Assembly: GCA_024277475.1 (NCBI GenBank)
Contig: JAJRVC010000473.1
Coordinates: 1 to 31,378 of the forward strand
Direction of reading: 5' to 3'
Source of the DNA: Deltaproteobacteria bacterium
GTDB lineage: Bacteria; Desulfobacterota; Desulfobacteria; Desulfobacterales; JAFDCJ01
DNA: 31,378 nt
Shown: positions 11,598 through 27,601 of the stretch, one piece after another
Position numbering within the stretch: the stretch's first letter is position 1
How the letters are laid out: each line of letters starts with the position of its first letter
Program-made: the position numbers and the translations under genes
Notes under the pieces: model-generated
Told to the model about the DNA's origin: nothing
Seen by the model: the letters and a program-made list of their open reading frames with translations, nothing else
Database searches by the model: none

Positions 11598-13133
11598 TTA
11601 GTGGCCGCGAACTTCAAAGATATCAAATTGTTCCATGTGAAACTCAGGATTGGGATCAATTACAATCTGCCTACCGATGTCCCGTTCGAGTTTGGAAATA
11701 AGCAAATCTTCTTCACCCAGAAAAAGTTCAGCAATTCGCGGATTGACTCTGAGTGTCAGCTGTGTGCTATCCATATCATGAGCATCCCGCAAAATCTCCC
11801 GAAAGATATTATAACAAATAGACTGTCTGTAAACCAGATACCCCTCGCCATCACAATAAAAGCACGGCTCACAAAGAAGCCGGGTCAGAGGCTCCCGGGT
11901 ACGCTTGCGGGTCATCTGGATTAATCCCATTTCAGATATGGGAAGAACATGGGTTTTGCTTTTGTCCCTTTTCAGGGCCTCCCTCAGGGCATTGAAAATT
12001 TTTTCCTGGTTGGATTTTTTTTCCATATCGATGAAATCAATAATAATAATACCCCCCAGATCCCTGAGCCTTATTTGATAGGCAATTTCTTTAACCGCCT
12101 CCAGATTGGTTTTTAAAATTGTCTCTTCCAGGTTATGTTTGCCGACATAGCGACCTGTATTGACATCGATGGCAACCAGGGCCTCCGTGTGCTCTATCAA
12201 AATATAGCCGCCTGATTTCAGCCATACCTTCCGTTTCAGGGCCCGGGAAATATCTCCCTCCAGATTATAGGCGTCAAAGATCGGCTCTGAGCCTTCATAC
12301 AACACAACATGGTCCTTTAAGCCGGGCATGTAATTATCCAGAAAGGATAAAACCATGTGATAGGTTGGTTTAGAGTCGATGACCAATTTTTCTACTTCCT
12401 GAATCAGGAGGTCACGCACTGCTCGAAGACTGATGGAAAGCTCAGCATGCAAAAGGGAGGGCGTCCGGGCGGTTTCAAATTTTTTCTGAATGTTCTTCCA
12501 CAGGTTGTTTAAAAATCCCATTTCATAGGCGAGCTTTTCTTCCTGTTCGCCTTCCGCAGCGGTTCTCACGATATATCCGAAATCTTAAGTTCTCAGTTTC
12601 TGTACCATTCCTTTTAAACGTTCCCGCTCGCCTTCATCTTCGATGCGCCGGGAGACGCCGATATGATCGGAAGTGGGCATTAACACTAAAAACCGACCGG
12701 GAAGAGATATATAAGAGGAGATGCGGGCACCTTTGGTTCCCATGGGAGATTTGGCCGCCTGAACCAAAACCTCCTGCCCCTCCTGAATAATTTCTTCAAT
12801 ACTAAAATCACGTTTTTTCAAAAATTCCGGGATTGCTTTATTCTCCGAACCGTCTTCGTCCATCTCAGATTTGAAGTCAAATAGCTGCTCATATTCCTTA
12901 AGACCGTCATAGAACACATCGTCCACGTAGATGAAAGCCGCCTGATTTAACCCGATATTCACGAAGGCCGCCTGCATACCGGGCAAAACACGCAACACCC
13001 GACCCTTGTAAATATTTCCGGCAATATTGGAGTCATCCCCGCGATCGACATAAAGCTCTGCAATGTTACCATCATCCAGCAGGGCTACCCGGGTTTCATG
13101 TTCGGTCACATTGATGATGAGTTGTTTGTACAT
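11598..13133 (-). pseudogene. rng: Ribonuclease E/G interrupted by an in-frame TAA
   Basis: The two parts together form a full-length RNase G-like endoribonuclease (about 511 residues), which cleaves single-stranded RNA in rRNA maturation and mRNA decay. Part one (13133 to 12585) starts MYKQLIINVTEHETRVALL and has the S1-like domain (GNIYKGRVLRVLPGMQAAFV). Part two has RTAAEG, the catalytic aspartates in ALVAIDVNTGRY and IIIIDFIDM, and the CxxC zinc-link region near CEPCFYCDGEGY. TAA at 12585-12587 separates them, and the frame is unchanged: the next codons read DFGYIVRTAAEG, exactly the conserved continuation. One base substitution from AAA, GAA or CAA would explain it. Re-initiation at GTG 12569 with a weak GGAT is conceivable. 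Otherwise the gene is dead or the base was misread. Confidence 0.9.
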
Positions 13134-13149
13134 AAAATCATTATACTCC

Positions 13150-13253
13150 CATAGCAAAGGCAGAGCGCTTAAAGCAGAGAGCAAAAATCGTAGAGTAGCT
13201 TTTCTCCATCCCTGCTCTTTGCCCTGTGCTCTCTGCGCTATGCTCTCTGCTTA
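13150..13253. repeat. Palindromic GCTCT/AGAGC repeat between rng and the radical SAM gene
   Basis: AGCAGAGAGCA (13173-13183) and TGCTCTCTGCT (13241-13251) are perfect reverse complements, and several more CTCTGC/GCTCT words lie between. It looks like a dispersed intergenic repeat. Its right arm supplies the last four codons and the stop of the radical SAM gene, so the repeat has moved into that gene's end. Confidence 0.55.
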
Positions 13254-21779: not shown

Positions 21780-21843
21780 TAAAAAAAGTCTTTTATAAAT
21801 TACCGATGGGCAGGCGCTTGGCCCTACCAGGAGGAATTTGGTC

Positions 21844-23109
21844 ATGGACAATTTAAGAGAGCTATTGAAAATTTCCGAAGATCGTCTGAATGAAGTAAAT
21901 GATTTATTAACCGACCCCGCGAATGAAACGGTCAATCAAATTCTGGCGATCATTGAAAAGTACGGTGGTCCGGAAGAAATTAACCGCAAGGCAGCCGTGG
22001 CTGGTAAATTAGAAAACCTGATGACCCGGTTAAAGGATATCAAATCACCCTATGTTGCCGGGCTTCAATGGCTAGTTGAGCAGCGCGACAAAGAAGCGTT
22101 TGTCTCCATGGCCGATTATTATGATCGAATTTTAGCTGACCGTGACGCGGGCACGGAGATCAATCAGGACAACGCGGTGACCCTGGAAATTAGTGCCCTG
22201 CAGTTTTTTCCCTGGCTGATTGCCGAGGCCAGGCAAGCCATCAAAAACAAGGAATTGATGCCCGGCCGCTACATCAGAGTGCGCAACATGAAGGAGCAGG
22301 CCGAAGACAACGGCGATATCCTGGCTACCTCAGCAGCGGTACAGGTGATCGGTGCAACCTACGTCGAGACCCTTGACACCAAAGGTACCGATGGTTCCAA
22401 CATTCATCTCGGGGGGCCGGAAACCATCACCGGCTATTTCGGCGGTATCGGCCAGCCCAACGATTACCCTTACAAATGGATTGATGAATATCTTTATTAT
22501 TACACAAATTACGGCGTCCGTCAGGTATTGAATATCAACGCCGGCACTATCCTGGCAGCTTACCTGCTGCACAAACTGGGGGTCGATAATGAGTTCAAAA
22601 TTTCAGTTTTCATGGGCAACGATAATCCCCTGGCAGTCCTCTGGACCCTGATGGCCGCACGTTTGTTTGCCCGTGAGGATGGTACCACGTCACTGATCGG
22701 TTTTAATCTGTCCAACTCGGCCGACAACCGGACCATCCGGCAGGCCGCAAAAATACGCAAAGCCCTGGGCCTGGAGAAAGAGGTGCGCTTTGAACACCAT
22801 ATCACCGAGACCCAGAAATCGATCGTCATTCAGCCTTATAACCGGCGCGATGAACTGGTCGAAGTGGCCCGGGAGGTGTCCAACATTGCCGCCAAACACG
22901 AAGGCGGCGATCCCGAGGTGGACGCCGCCCGGGAACACCCCAGCGATATTCTGGAATACTTCCTGCCGAAAGAGGAAATTATATCCCGGGGCCTGATGGA
23001 TGCCCTGGAACAAAACTACCTGGATAAACACGATGCGCTCAACCGCACCGCCGATGCCCTGGTAAAGGCCGGCATTGGCGTGGTGTGCGCCTGGAATTTG
23101 CATAAATAA
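21844..23109 (+). CDS. Conserved protein of unknown function (421 residues)
   Basis: A soluble, cytoplasmic-looking protein that I do not recognise. ATG 21844 is chosen because AGGAGG (21829-21834) is nine bases upstream; a TTG two codons earlier would leave only three bases. The N-terminal ~130 residues are helical and charged. The central part has motifs that look catalytic or ligand-binding: ETLDTKGTDGSNIHLGGPET near 180, NINAGTILAAYLLHK and SVFMGNDNPLAVLWTLMAAR, consistent with an alpha/beta, possibly barrel, fold. A Glu/His-rich FEHHITETQKS follows. No signal peptide or membrane segment is seen. It is preceded by an inverted-repeat element, so probably transcribed separately from panB. 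Confidence 0.75.
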   Translation: MDNLRELLKISEDRLNEVNDLLTDPANETVNQILAIIEKYGGPEEINRKAAVAGKLENLMTRLKDIKSPYVAGLQWLVEQRDKEAFVSMADYYDRILADRDAGTEINQDNAVTLEISALQFFPWLIAEARQAIKNKELMPGRYIRVRNMKEQAEDNGDILATSAAVQVIGATYVETLDTKGTDGSNIHLGGPETITGYFGGIGQPNDYPYKWIDEYLYYYTNYGVRQVLNINAGTILAAYLLHKLGVDNEFKISVFMGNDNPLAVLWTLMAARLFAREDGTTSLIGFNLSNSADNRTIRQAAKIRKALGLEKEVRFEHHITETQKSIVIQPYNRRDELVEVAREVSNIAAKHEGGDPEVDAAREHPSDILEYFLPKEEIISRGLMDALEQNYLDKHDALNRTADALVKAGIGVVCAWNLHK

Positions 23110-23373: not shown

Positions 23374-24465
23374 ATGACGCAAAACAAAAATAAGGGTGAA
23401 AAAAACCACGAGGCCGCATCCGATCAAACGATGGAACATCAGGTACAAAAAGAGACGCCCGGAGAGGCTGGAGCTTCGAACGAAAGAGTGGTGGGTGTAG
23501 ACATCGGAACCTCTAAAATCGTTTTCTCCGAGAAGAAAAATGGAAAAATTGATTTCAGCTCTCACCGCAATGCCTTTATCTCAGTGGATTATTCCAAATT
23601 CACCGAGAGAATTCTGAATCAGAACCAGATAAAATATCATAGAATCGACAATTCTTTGATTGTATTCGGCGACGGGGCTGAAATCTTCGCCAATATGCTC
23701 AACACGGAAACCCGTCGTCCCATGCGCCAGGGTTTGCTGAATCCCAAGGAATCTTATTCCGTAGAAATTATAAAGAAAATTCTAAACGAACTGATCGAAT
23801 CCTCGCAAAATTCTGATTCTAAACTATATTTTTCCATACCCGACCCGCCAAAAGGTTCCGAGACTGATATCATTTATCATGAAACCGTCTTAAAGCGTCA
23901 TTTAACTGAAAAAGGCTATACCAGCAATAGCATCAACGAGGGACTAGCGGTTATTTTTTCCGAATTGGAAGATGAAAGTTTCACCGGTATGGGTATCAGT
24001 GCCGGCGGGGGCATGTGTAACGTTTGTCTAGCCTACCTATCCGTACCTCTTGTCTCTTTCAGTATCAATAAAGGAGGCGATTATATCGACGACGCGACGG
24101 CCTCGGTCACCGGTACAATCAATACTCGAGTGCGAGGTGTCAAGGAAAATGGTTTTGATCTCCAAAGAAAACCCTCTAATGATATCGAGGATGCGCTGCA
24201 TATATACTACGATGACCTGATTATGAGCCTGGTAAGATCTCTCAAGGACAGCATTGTTCAGACATCCACCACGCTAAAAATAGATCGCCCGATCCCTATC
24301 GTGTTAAGTGGCGGCACGGCCAAGGTGCGCGGTTTCAAGGAACGCTTTGAGCATTTCTTGAATATGGAGCAAATCCCTTTGGATTTCAACAAAATCCGGA
24401 TTGCGGAAGATCCGCTCAATGCCACGGCAAAAGGGGCTCTGATCGCCGCCATGCATGAAAATTAG
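23374..24465 (+). CDS. Divergent actin/MreB-like ATPase
   Basis: A 363-residue protein of the actin-like ATPase superfamily. Phosphate-1 is VVGVDIGTSKIVF (39-51), connect-1 INEGLAVIFSE (187-197), phosphate-2 GMGISAGGGMCNVCLAY (205-221), the adenosine motif IVLSGGTAKVRGF (309-321), and connect-2 NATAKGALIAA (349-359). GGDYIDDA near 234 mirrors a GGD-DEA segment of MreB. An unusual ~37-residue, charged, Gln/Glu-rich N-terminal tail precedes the fold. It lacks enough MreB identity to be called MreB, and it is not in an mreBCD context. AGGAG (23361-23365) lies eight bases before the ATG. Its neighbour, across 343 bases, is a membrane-anchored amidase; the pairing suggests, but does not prove, a shared role in envelope organisation. 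Confidence 0.8.
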   Translation: MTQNKNKGEKNHEAASDQTMEHQVQKETPGEAGASNERVVGVDIGTSKIVFSEKKNGKIDFSSHRNAFISVDYSKFTERILNQNQIKYHRIDNSLIVFGDGAEIFANMLNTETRRPMRQGLLNPKESYSVEIIKKILNELIESSQNSDSKLYFSIPDPPKGSETDIIYHETVLKRHLTEKGYTSNSINEGLAVIFSELEDESFTGMGISAGGGMCNVCLAYLSVPLVSFSINKGGDYIDDATASVTGTINTRVRGVKENGFDLQRKPSNDIEDALHIYYDDLIMSLVRSLKDSIVQTSTTLKIDRPIPIVLSGGTAKVRGFKERFEHFLNMEQIPLDFNKIRIAEDPLNATAKGALIAAMHEN

Positions 24466-24808
24466 AAGACAGATCCGAATAATTTACCGCAGAGTTCGCA
24501 GAGAACGCCGAGATGTTCAAAAAAGATAATTTTAAATAATCTCTGCAATCTCTGCGGTTGGTTGAATTGTCACCAGGAAACTTCATGAAAATGATAATGG
24601 CACAGGATTTTGTGAAGTCTCATTTGAGGACTTAGCGCCTTTGAGACCTGACACGCGAAACTTGATCCGTCTGCAGCGGACAACCTATAATTTAGTCCCC
24701 GATTATTTCGCTGGCAGCAAAATAAATACTCCATTTCATCAATAGACACTGAAATGCGGGCCTTCCGCCAAATCTTCTACGATTAAATCCATTATCATGC
24801 CTTAACCC
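24466..24808. other. Gene-free spacer between actin-like and amidase genes
   Basis: The spacer holds one clear inverted repeat (described separately) near its start. The remaining ~250 bases show no ORF with a ribosome site, no tRNA-like fold and no promoter good enough to name. Confidence 0.4.
24486..24558. repeat. Inverted-repeat element with ACCGCAGAG ends
   Basis: ACCGCAGAGTTCGCAGAG (24486-24503) pairs with the reverse complement of 24541-24558 (ACCGCAGAGATTGCAGAG), differing only in the middle. The 37-base centre is AT-rich. It is similar in style to the element after panB (arms made of GCAGA words), suggesting a family of short intergenic elements. Confidence 0.6.
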
Positions 24809-27601
24809 ATGGACACGACATATTCCTTAAAATTGCCGCCGAAAAATTATCGGCGAATTATCGAAGAGCTGTCCGTTGTTATCCCAGACCCCGCTTTAAA
24901 GCTGAAATTCCTGAAACAGGCCATAAATGAACATCAAAAGATATCTGCACCCTACAAGCTTTACCCCCCGATAGCCGGAATTGCTTTTCGCAAAAAGCTT
25001 TTAAATAATGCTGAACAAATTTGGCCCGGCAGCAAAAAAGCTGTAAAAAAGCTTATCTGTACAGGCGTCGTTTCCGCTCCCCATAGTAAATTATTGTGGC
25101 TCTACAAATTACGGTATGCAATTGGGTCTGCAATTCTAATGTTCTTTATTTTGGGGGTCGGTACGGCGATTTCCCCTTTGGTCGGAAGCTTTAATCTTGA
25201 TGCGCTGATCAAGCTGAATTCTCAGCAGGTAAAAATAACGAATGCAAAAGTCATTATCCGAAAGCCGGTATTTCATTCCCAACGCTCCGGGAGCGGAGAC
25301 AACCCGAATTCATATAGGGTCATCATCAAGCCTGTAAATCATAAAAATAGGTCCGTCCAGATTCCCGATTATTTACGAAACCCTGTTTTAATGGCCTTGG
25401 CTTCTCAACAGATCATAAGTCCCAAACCGGATCGTATCAGCCAAAAGACACTATTGTCCGCACAGCTGCGCAACCGTGGAAACCATCCGGCTACAGCCAT
25501 CGCAAAACCTGCAATATTTCAAACCAGACCTGAGCAGATTCTGAAATACTTGCAGAATCCTATTTTGACGGCTCTGACTTCTCAACAGATCATAAATTCC
25601 AAATCAGACCCTATCACCCCAAAACCGCCACTATCTTTTCAGACGTCTGAAAGCGAAAACCATTCACCTTCACTTGTCGTCAAGCCTGTAAATCATCAAA
25701 GGCGGTCCGCGCGGGTTGCCAAATATTTACAAAATCCTGTTTTAATGGCCCTGACTTCTCAGCAGGTCAAAAATTCCAAACCGGTTCGTATCAGCCAAAA
25801 AACGCTATTGTCCGCACAGCCGCGCAACCGCGCAAAACATCCGCCTGCAGCTACCATCGAACCTGCAAAAAATCAAAATAAGCCTGAGCTGGTTCTCAAA
25901 TATTTCCAAAACCCCATTTTGATGGCCCTGGCTTCTCAGCAGATCATAAATTCCACATCGGATCGTATCAGCCAAAAGACACTATTATCTGCACAGTCGC
26001 GCAACCGCGGGAACCACCCAACTTTAGCTATCATCAAACCGGCTAAACATCAAAATGAGTCTAAGCTGGTTCTCAGATATTTCCAAAACCCCATTTTGAT
26101 GGCCCTGGCTTCTCAGCAGATCATAAATTCCACATCGGACCCTATCACCCAAAAGACGCTACTGTCTTCCCAGACGCCCGAAAGTGAAAGCCATTCACCC
26201 CCAACTGTCGTCAAACCTGCAAATCATCAACATGGGCCCGCACGGGTTCTCAAATACCTGCAGAATCCCGTTTTGATAGCCCTGATTTCTCAACGGATTA
26301 AAAATTCCACCCGGGATCGTACCATCGAAAAGACGATGCTTTCTTCTCGGCCGCACGAAAGTGAAGACCAACCACCTTCTTCTATCATCAAACCCTTAAA
26401 TCATCAAAACAGGTCCGGACAGGTTGCCGAATATTTACAAAACCCCATTTTATCGGCCCTGACTTTTCAACGGATCATAAGTTCCAAACCGGATCGTATC
26501 GCCCAAAAGCCGCTACTATCTTCTCAGACGCTCGAAAGCGAAAGCCATTCGCCTTCACCGGTCGTCAAAACTGCAAAATATCAAAATGAATCCGAGCCGG
26601 TTCCCGAATATCTGCGAAAACCTATCTGGCTGGTGGAGAAAACATCTGATCGTGAAATTTACAGCAACCGACTGCAGATAATCACAACATACACAATTTC
26701 CAATATACCCCGCGAATACTATCGGTTCCCAAAAAATTCCAAAAAGTTGCCGGCGAATAGTAAGACTACGAATAAAATCGCAGGTATTGTGTATCATGCA
26801 TCGGAAAGCGACCTGTACCCCTTCATGCCGGAAATGAATCGCTCTATCCAGAAATACAGCAAACGGCTGATCAAATATCTTCTACGCAAAAAGTCTTATA
26901 ATTTTTTCATTGATCGATTCGGGCGTGTCTACCGGTTGGTTCAGGAAGACCAGGTCGCTTTTCATGCCGGAAATTCGATCTGGGCCGATGATGAGGAAGT
27001 TTATCTAAACCTTAATCATGCCTTCATTGGTATTTGTTTTGAGGGTAAAGATTTCGAAGAAATCAAAATCGGTGATCAAAAAAAGGGCCAACTCAAAAAC
27101 TCGAAATCTTCCCTCCTTAAACCAACAGGTATTTTATCGGTCAATGAGGCCCAGTTGCGATCGGGAAAGGAGCTGACCGATTGGCTCAGAGTAAAATACA
27201 ACATTCCCCAGCACAACTGTGTACCCCATGCTCTAATATCCGTTAACCCCAATAGAATGTTGATCGGTTATCATCTGGATCTGGCCCGGGGGTTCCCCTT
27301 CGCTAAGTTTGGGCTGAGTGATAAATACCAGGAATTCCTGCCTTCTATGGTCGAATTTGGATTTCTTTATGACCGCTATTTTGAAAAGATATTTAACGGT
27401 GAACTCTGGCGCGGAATTCGTTCCTCCGAGCAAATCCTGCAGCGTCAAGCCGCGAATTCAGGTATGAGTTTTGCTGAGTATCGTAAAAGCCTGCAGCGAA
27501 AATTTTCCCGGTATAGGGAATGGAATAAAAAAATGCTTGAGAAAAAGGACCCAACGGACATTAACCCCCCACAGGGGCCGTTAACGGCTGCTCAAAACTG
27601 A
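24809..27601 (+). CDS. Membrane-anchored repeat-stalk protein with C-terminal peptidoglycan amidase domain
   Basis: A 930-residue protein with an unusual layout. Residues 1-100 are basic and soluble. One membrane helix follows (about 102-125, RYAIGSAILMFFILGVGTAI). Seven tandem repeats of exactly 59 residues span 191-603, each opening NP-[IV]-L-x-A-L-x-x-Q, after a degenerate copy. The C-terminal part (about 655-860) matches the Amidase_2/PGRP fold: IVYHAS (His 663), FIDRFGRVYRLVQEDQVAFHAGNS, then VPHALISVNPNR (His 807) and YHLDLARGFPF (Asp 824), a plausible zinc triad. A charged helical tail closes it. With the N-terminus inside, the amidase lies in the periplasm and would cut the MurNAc-L-Ala bond. 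The ATG has no clear ribosome site. Confidence 0.82.
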   Translation: MDTTYSLKLPPKNYRRIIEELSVVIPDPALKLKFLKQAINEHQKISAPYKLYPPIAGIAFRKKLLNNAEQIWPGSKKAVKKLICTGVVSAPHSKLLWLYKLRYAIGSAILMFFILGVGTAISPLVGSFNLDALIKLNSQQVKITNAKVIIRKPVFHSQRSGSGDNPNSYRVIIKPVNHKNRSVQIPDYLRNPVLMALASQQIISPKPDRISQKTLLSAQLRNRGNHPATAIAKPAIFQTRPEQILKYLQNPILTALTSQQIINSKSDPITPKPPLSFQTSESENHSPSLVVKPVNHQRRSARVAKYLQNPVLMALTSQQVKNSKPVRISQKTLLSAQPRNRAKHPPAATIEPAKNQNKPELVLKYFQNPILMALASQQIINSTSDRISQKTLLSAQSRNRGNHPTLAIIKPAKHQNESKLVLRYFQNPILMALASQQIINSTSDPITQKTLLSSQTPESESHSPPTVVKPANHQHGPARVLKYLQNPVLIALISQRIKNSTRDRTIEKTMLSSRPHESEDQPPSSIIKPLNHQNRSGQVAEYLQNPILSALTFQRIISSKPDRIAQKPLLSSQTLESESHSPSPVVKTAKYQNESEPVPEYLRKPIWLVEKTSDREIYSNRLQIITTYTISNIPREYYRFPKNSKKLPANSKTTNKIAGIVYHASESDLYPFMPEMNRSIQKYSKRLIKYLLRKKSYNFFIDRFGRVYRLVQEDQVAFHAGNSIWADDEEVYLNLNHAFIGICFEGKDFEEIKIGDQKKGQLKNSKSSLLKPTGILSVNEAQLRSGKELTDWLRVKYNIPQHNCVPHALISVNPNRMLIGYHLDLARGFPFAKFGLSDKYQEFLPSMVEFGFLYDRYFEKIFNGELWRGIRSSEQILQRQAANSGMSFAEYRKSLQRKFSRYREWNKKMLEKKDPTDINPPQGPLTAAQN
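25379..26617 (+). repeat. Seven tandem 177-base coding repeats
   Basis: Units start at 25379, 25556, 25733, 25910, 26087, 26264 and 26441, with no length variation. Two variants occur: copies 1, 3 and 4 carry SAQ-x-RNR-x-x-HP in the middle, and copies 2, 5, 6 and 7 carry an S-Q/R-x-x-ESE-type middle. The openings of copies 4 and 5 are identical for more than 50 bases, which points to recent duplication or gene conversion. Confidence 0.92.

Follow-up and report, generated by a model that had tools for sequence, protein, structure and literature searches.

Cytoplasmic actin is known to steer periplasmic wall enzymes in the MreB-RodZ-PBP2 elongasome, from which the module described here differs in having an additional actin and an enzyme that should cut rather than build. 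To our knowledge, little is understood of the spatial aiming of bacterial wall hydrolases except in division (FtsEX-EnvC) and in the bactofilin-LmdC pair. AMIN domains occur in septal amidases, and enzymes of the Amidase_2/PGRP type hold zinc through a His, His, Asp/Cys pattern. The Amidase_2 fold is common to AmpDh2, AmiD, AmpD and the protein reported here; we take those three enzymes to be without its helical N-terminal domain, transmembrane helix and repeat linker. In Rhodospirillum, according to passages of PMC10945521, a bactofilin recruits the transmembrane M23 peptidase LmdC via a cytoplasmic beta-hairpin of LmdC. The BacA-LmdC arrangement of Hyphomonas and Rhodospirillum, as those passages describe it, resembles our locus in that a cytoskeletal gene lies beside one for a wall hydrolase that spans the inner membrane once and carries, at its N-terminus, a cytoplasmic element for recruitment; the partners there are a bactofilin, an M23 enzyme and a beta-hairpin, whereas here they are an actin, an Amidase_2 zinc amidase and a helical N-terminal domain. 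With an actin as neighbour and Amidase_2 as enzyme, the locus was rejected as a member of the bactofilin-LmdC module; by analogy, the actin-amidase pair may work like it. Volactin of Haloferax volcanii forms dynamic filaments whose tips touch the membrane, and the passages of PMC10869688 that describe it mention no amidase partner; this archaeal protein gave its name to Pfam family PF25216, to which the actin of our locus belongs. Bbp, which is actin-like and occurs in giant cable bacteria and other large bacteria, is likewise an additional, non-MreB actin in Desulfobacterota, but the gene cluster described for it in passages of PMC10580974 holds a Kelch-domain protein and a hypothetical protein rather than an amidase; Mad28 is described in PMC12713370 as another extra actin of Desulfobacterota.

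The window, that is, the whole stretch of DNA analysed, comprises 31,378 nucleotides of contig JAJRVC010000473.1 from a Desulfobacterales assembly, and contains an actin gene and an amidase gene in tandem (Table 1).

Table 1. Features of the actin-amidase locus (window positions; residue numbers refer to the amidase)
Feature	Position	Strand	Basis or remark
Volactin-family bacterial actin, 363 aa, upstream partner	23374..24465	+	PF25216
Actin-amidase gap, 343 bp	24466..24808		widest of set
Membrane-tethered amidase, 930 aa	24809..27601	+	ORF, Pfam match, structure prediction
N-terminal helical domain, residues 12-85, presumably cytoplasmic	24842..25063	+	structure prediction, conservation
Transmembrane segment, residues 103-121	25115..25171	+	structure prediction and charge count
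Leading partial repeat unit, residues 131-179	25199..25345	+	repeat HMM, 18 bits, model positions 15-58
Seven full 59-residue units, residues 180-592	25346..26584	+	repeat model, structure prediction
Conserved amidase-proximal segment, residues 600-640 (YLxxPIWLVEKT...YSNRLQIIT)	26606..26728	+	conservation
Amidase_2/PGRP catalytic domain, residues 655-830	26771..27298	+	Pfam, alignment, fold match
Helical C-terminal extension, conserved, residues 845-913	27341..27547	+	conservation, structure prediction

The amidase was recovered with the one membrane helix that the sequence-only reading had placed near residue 110. The charges flanking this helix (five K/R and no D/E in residues 80-102, against two and one in residues 123-145) support an N-in/C-out topology, and the N-terminal domain is presumably cytoplasmic. 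The three-part layout proposed by that reading was incomplete, as it had missed the N-terminal domain; the conserved plan consists of four parts, namely the helical N-terminal domain, the transmembrane helix, a variable linker and the amidase. The N-terminal block was predicted with a pLDDT of 75-95, and of 77-91 in a second prediction, and PF01510 was also present in all 26 matches to a search with this domain. The Pfam search of the window's proteins gave no match to this stretch, and structure comparison found no clear fold match for it. The layout had also been thought unfamiliar, a view that holds in part: the homologue search returned 153 amidase homologues, but those of them that are named bear only generic names (hypothetical protein, peptidoglycan recognition family protein or amidase). 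Collectively, the computed anatomy supports an inner-membrane-tethered Amidase_2 protein with a repeat tract.

The assignment of the C-terminal region to an Amidase_2/PGRP domain with zinc ligands was confirmed by Pfam, fold match and conservation of the ligands cited. PF01510 scored 57.5 bits over residues 655-808 (cut-off 26), and the best fold matches were AmpD, AmpDh2 and AmiD, with eukaryotic PGRP chains among the matches. H663, H719, E745, H807, H822 and D824 were invariant in 68 aligned sequences; H663, H807 and D824, the putative zinc ligands, fit the pattern of the fold by identity and conservation at the sequence level. From these features we infer an N-acetylmuramoyl-L-alanine amidase.

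The linker carries the seven 59-residue units, which had been called exact repeats; their register and spacing are exact, while their identity is only about 50%. Structure prediction gave a pLDDT under 50 for residues 128-593, the units appearing disordered save for a short helix near each PILMAL-type core. A repeat HMM built from the seven full units, with the leading partial and amidase-proximal segments left outside the model, found two to eight full units in 56 of the 120 homologues listed, the window's protein included, and none in the other 64. Three units (24 carriers) and four (20) were commonest, followed by two (5), five (3) and six (2), with seven and eight in one carrier each. The same HMM matched the partial unit ahead of the array in 43 of the 56 carriers and the amidase-proximal segment in 10; it gave no match to the latter segment (residues 600-640) in the window's own protein, where this segment is in repeat register by position (P605 = P546 + 59). 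Because the model matches flanking segments that it was not built from, duplication of the native linker is the simplest reading of how the array grew. When 117 C-terminal domains were placed in a tree, a single branch (support 100/96) separated all 56 repeat carriers from the rest, and midpoint rooting nested them within the repeat-less family. P0011, P0012 and P0013, three proteins that do not differ in the C-terminal region entered into the tree, have four, four and five units. Across the family, linker length ranges from about 65 to 540 residues; a simple coil estimate of end-to-end distance gives about 6 nm for 65 residues and 21 nm for 482.

The gene upstream, which the sequence-only reading had missed, matched PF25216 with E = 5.3e-82 (276.3 bits, cut-off 35). 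As a control, the same profile was run on 14 genomes and had matches in three (E. coli, T. maritima and H. volcanii); one of these exceeded the cut-off, presumably the match in H. volcanii. MamK was rejected as an identity for this actin at 37.7 bits on the NCBIfam model (cut-off 400), as was MreB, at 21.3 bits on TIGR00904 (cut-off 365.75) and 26.7 bits on PF06723, a near miss of 0.3 bits below the cut-off of 27. Near full-length MreB was present in nine of 10 genomes tested (E <= 1.4e-146), the tenth, G001, having a partial match, and the Volactin-family protein is therefore an extra actin. Matches to it numbered 2349 proteins at E <= 1e-10; all of the best 120 of these 2349 carry PF25216, and named relatives are hypothetical, actin-like, actin-related or HU-type proteins. 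In four of them (P0225, P0227, P0228 and P0236) a Volactin-family actin is fused to an HU DNA-binding domain (PF00216), a possible link between actin and nucleoid; two of the four are named Acidobacteriota. We aligned 154 Volactin-type rows, comprising 104 of the amidase type (some proteins twice), the 28 next-nearest, several of which are named Acidobacteriota, and two other sets of 14 and eight. The nucleotide-site residues D43, G45, G211, G213, G313 and G314 were kept in all 154 rows and E189 in 153; E189 did not line up with a glutamate of MreB in this alignment. The aspartate of MreB's DIGGGT motif was serine in every row (S209 in the window's actin), and ATP hydrolysis and dynamics may for this reason differ or have been lost.

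To assess the pairing, we compared 18 places, the window and 17 genome contigs, drawn from Desulfobacterales, Desulfobacteraceae, Desulfosarcina, Desulfobacterium, Desulfosudis, Desulfocicer, Deltaproteobacteria MAGs and one Cyclobacteriaceae MAG; the last locus, L002, is probably mis-binned. With L002 set aside for having only 629 bp upstream, the actin was the same-strand gene upstream of the amidase in all 17 testable places (16 loci and the window), and the paired actins were 56-89% identical to the window's. The two genes are separated by 14-42 bp in seven loci (L003, L009, L010, L011, L012, L014 and L016) and by 235-290 bp in L001, L006 and L015, with possible overlaps in other loci; given the wider gap in the window, co-transcription is not certain there. 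Moreover, the 17 amidase-linked actins fell into one clade (support 100/99), joined by four listed proteins known by sequence only. A scan of 291 genomes of the class gave some match to the actin profile in 27 and to the amidase profile in 28; an amidase-type actin (E <= 1.6e-175, next group from 2.5e-122) and a full amidase (E <= 2.7e-140, next match 1.9e-6) occurred in the same 11 genomes, and neither occurred alone. Only G044, which was first met through its actin and has the amidase adjoining, is independent of the contig comparison, because eight of the 11 were reached via the amidase and G089 and G192 are L010 and L016 by contig coordinates. Titles and abstract openings in the open-access literature yielded no paper on Volactin-actin/amidase pairing.

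An uncharacterised actin that a group of bacteria of the sulfate-reducing type encodes beside a membrane-spanning enzyme built for wall cutting suggests that an internal filament decides the site of the wall cut. We consider it likely that the N-terminal domain is bound by a Volactin-type filament in the cytoplasm, which thereby positions the flexibly tethered amidase for local trimming of peptidoglycan. The amidase would be the partner, in a module of two and in some cases three genes, of an actin that polymerises in the cytoplasm; the amidase's N-terminal helical domain would dock on the filament or on a membrane-bound filament tip, its single helix would cross the inner membrane, and its flexible linker, apparently lengthened in one clade by duplication of a 59-residue piece of itself, would give the zinc amidase access to peptidoglycan close by. 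In this way the filament would set the place and the time of wall cutting, in the service of shape, constriction or the separation of cells.

The stalk had earlier been proposed to act as a ruler that holds the enzyme at a fixed distance so as to reach the peptidoglycan. Units of exactly 59 residues, in register in the window's protein, suit such a role, and a ruler would be compatible with the actin pairing; it would, however, leave that pairing without explanation, and the low pLDDT of the stalk, together with two to eight units among carriers and none in more than half of the listed homologues, led us to abandon the fixed-distance claim, to which we attach very little credence. Because the unit number is loose and the stalk is predicted to be disordered, we argue for a flexible tether rather than a ruler. 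We also regard it as unlikely that the protein signals inward like a receptor, its PGRP-like domain sensing peptidoglycan or muropeptides and its N-terminal domain regulating the actin. A topology that puts a PGRP fold on the outer side of the membrane and a folded domain on the inner side, and the eukaryotic PGRP chains among the fold matches would be in keeping with a sensor, but zinc ligands and neighbouring site residues that are invariant in 68 relatives are expected of an enzyme, and the best fold matches are enzymes.

The conserved gene order might instead reflect a shared operon without contact, in which both genes serve wall remodelling independently and the N-terminal domain has another task, such as dimerisation. 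While the wide gaps in the window and in L001, L006 and L015 are consistent with such independence, the unbroken synteny across actins of this divergence, the co-occurrence in the same 11 genomes and the conservation of the N-terminal domain argue against it, and we judge it improbable. A folded, conserved N-terminal domain, constant pairing with an actin and a tethered periplasmic hydrolase are best explained by filament-directed cutting.

In part of the family a third gene is present: a single-TM AMIN-domain protein adjoins the amidase downstream in six of 15 places and is lacking in nine. These 15 are the window and 14 loci, L002, L007 and L010 having too little sequence downstream. Five of the six exceeded the PF11741 cut-off of 20.5 with 29.3-40.8 bits, the sixth, cut by the contig end in L006, scoring 18.8; two of the six have paired CxxC motifs at the N-terminus. 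This membrane protein is probably a peptidoglycan-binding guide or regulator. The window contains no AMIN-domain gene. Downstream of its amidase lies a PIN-family toxin gene (TIGR00305; 27763-28403, + strand), preceded by a 75-aa ORF without a Pfam match, perhaps an antitoxin. Elsewhere in the window, a 423-aa ORF (21838-23109) has no Pfam or NCBIfam match and a partial relative at the start of L001, and what looks by eye like an RNase E/G gene (11598-13184, - strand) is split, with 15 bases between its two ORFs (12585-13184 and 11598-12569), possibly through a frameshift or an assembly error.

Furthermore, we inspected 27 places with other Volactin-type actins in the class and the phylum (17 + 10); the weaker matches L044 and L047 were set aside, as were the fragment L076 and also L077-L080. 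In five of the 27 (L096, L097, L098, L099 and L100) the actin adjoined a full class A PBP that has both Pfam domains, and these five actins formed one clade (support 100/96). At three of the five PBP loci, an unclassified stretch of about 135-190 residues extends the PBP at its N-terminus, ahead of the TM helix. The remaining actins have ParA-like, coiled-coil and PAP2 genes among their neighbours, as well as ORFs that look helicase-like by eye. We tentatively raise the possibility, somewhat against the odds, that bacterial Volactin-type actins form a separate wall-directing cytoskeleton beside MreB, with clades that each have their own enzyme, an amidase that cuts or a class A PBP that builds.

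If filament-directed cutting holds, the actin and its tethered amidase would offer a minimal system in which to ask if a filament of actin on one side of the membrane can set the site of a wall cut on the other, and part of a large bacterial actin family would gain a function. Were the broader proposal also true, clades of this family would have adopted single-pass membrane enzymes, each with its own N-terminal adaptor, and the family would amount to a modular set of tools, addressed by filaments, for editing the wall locally.
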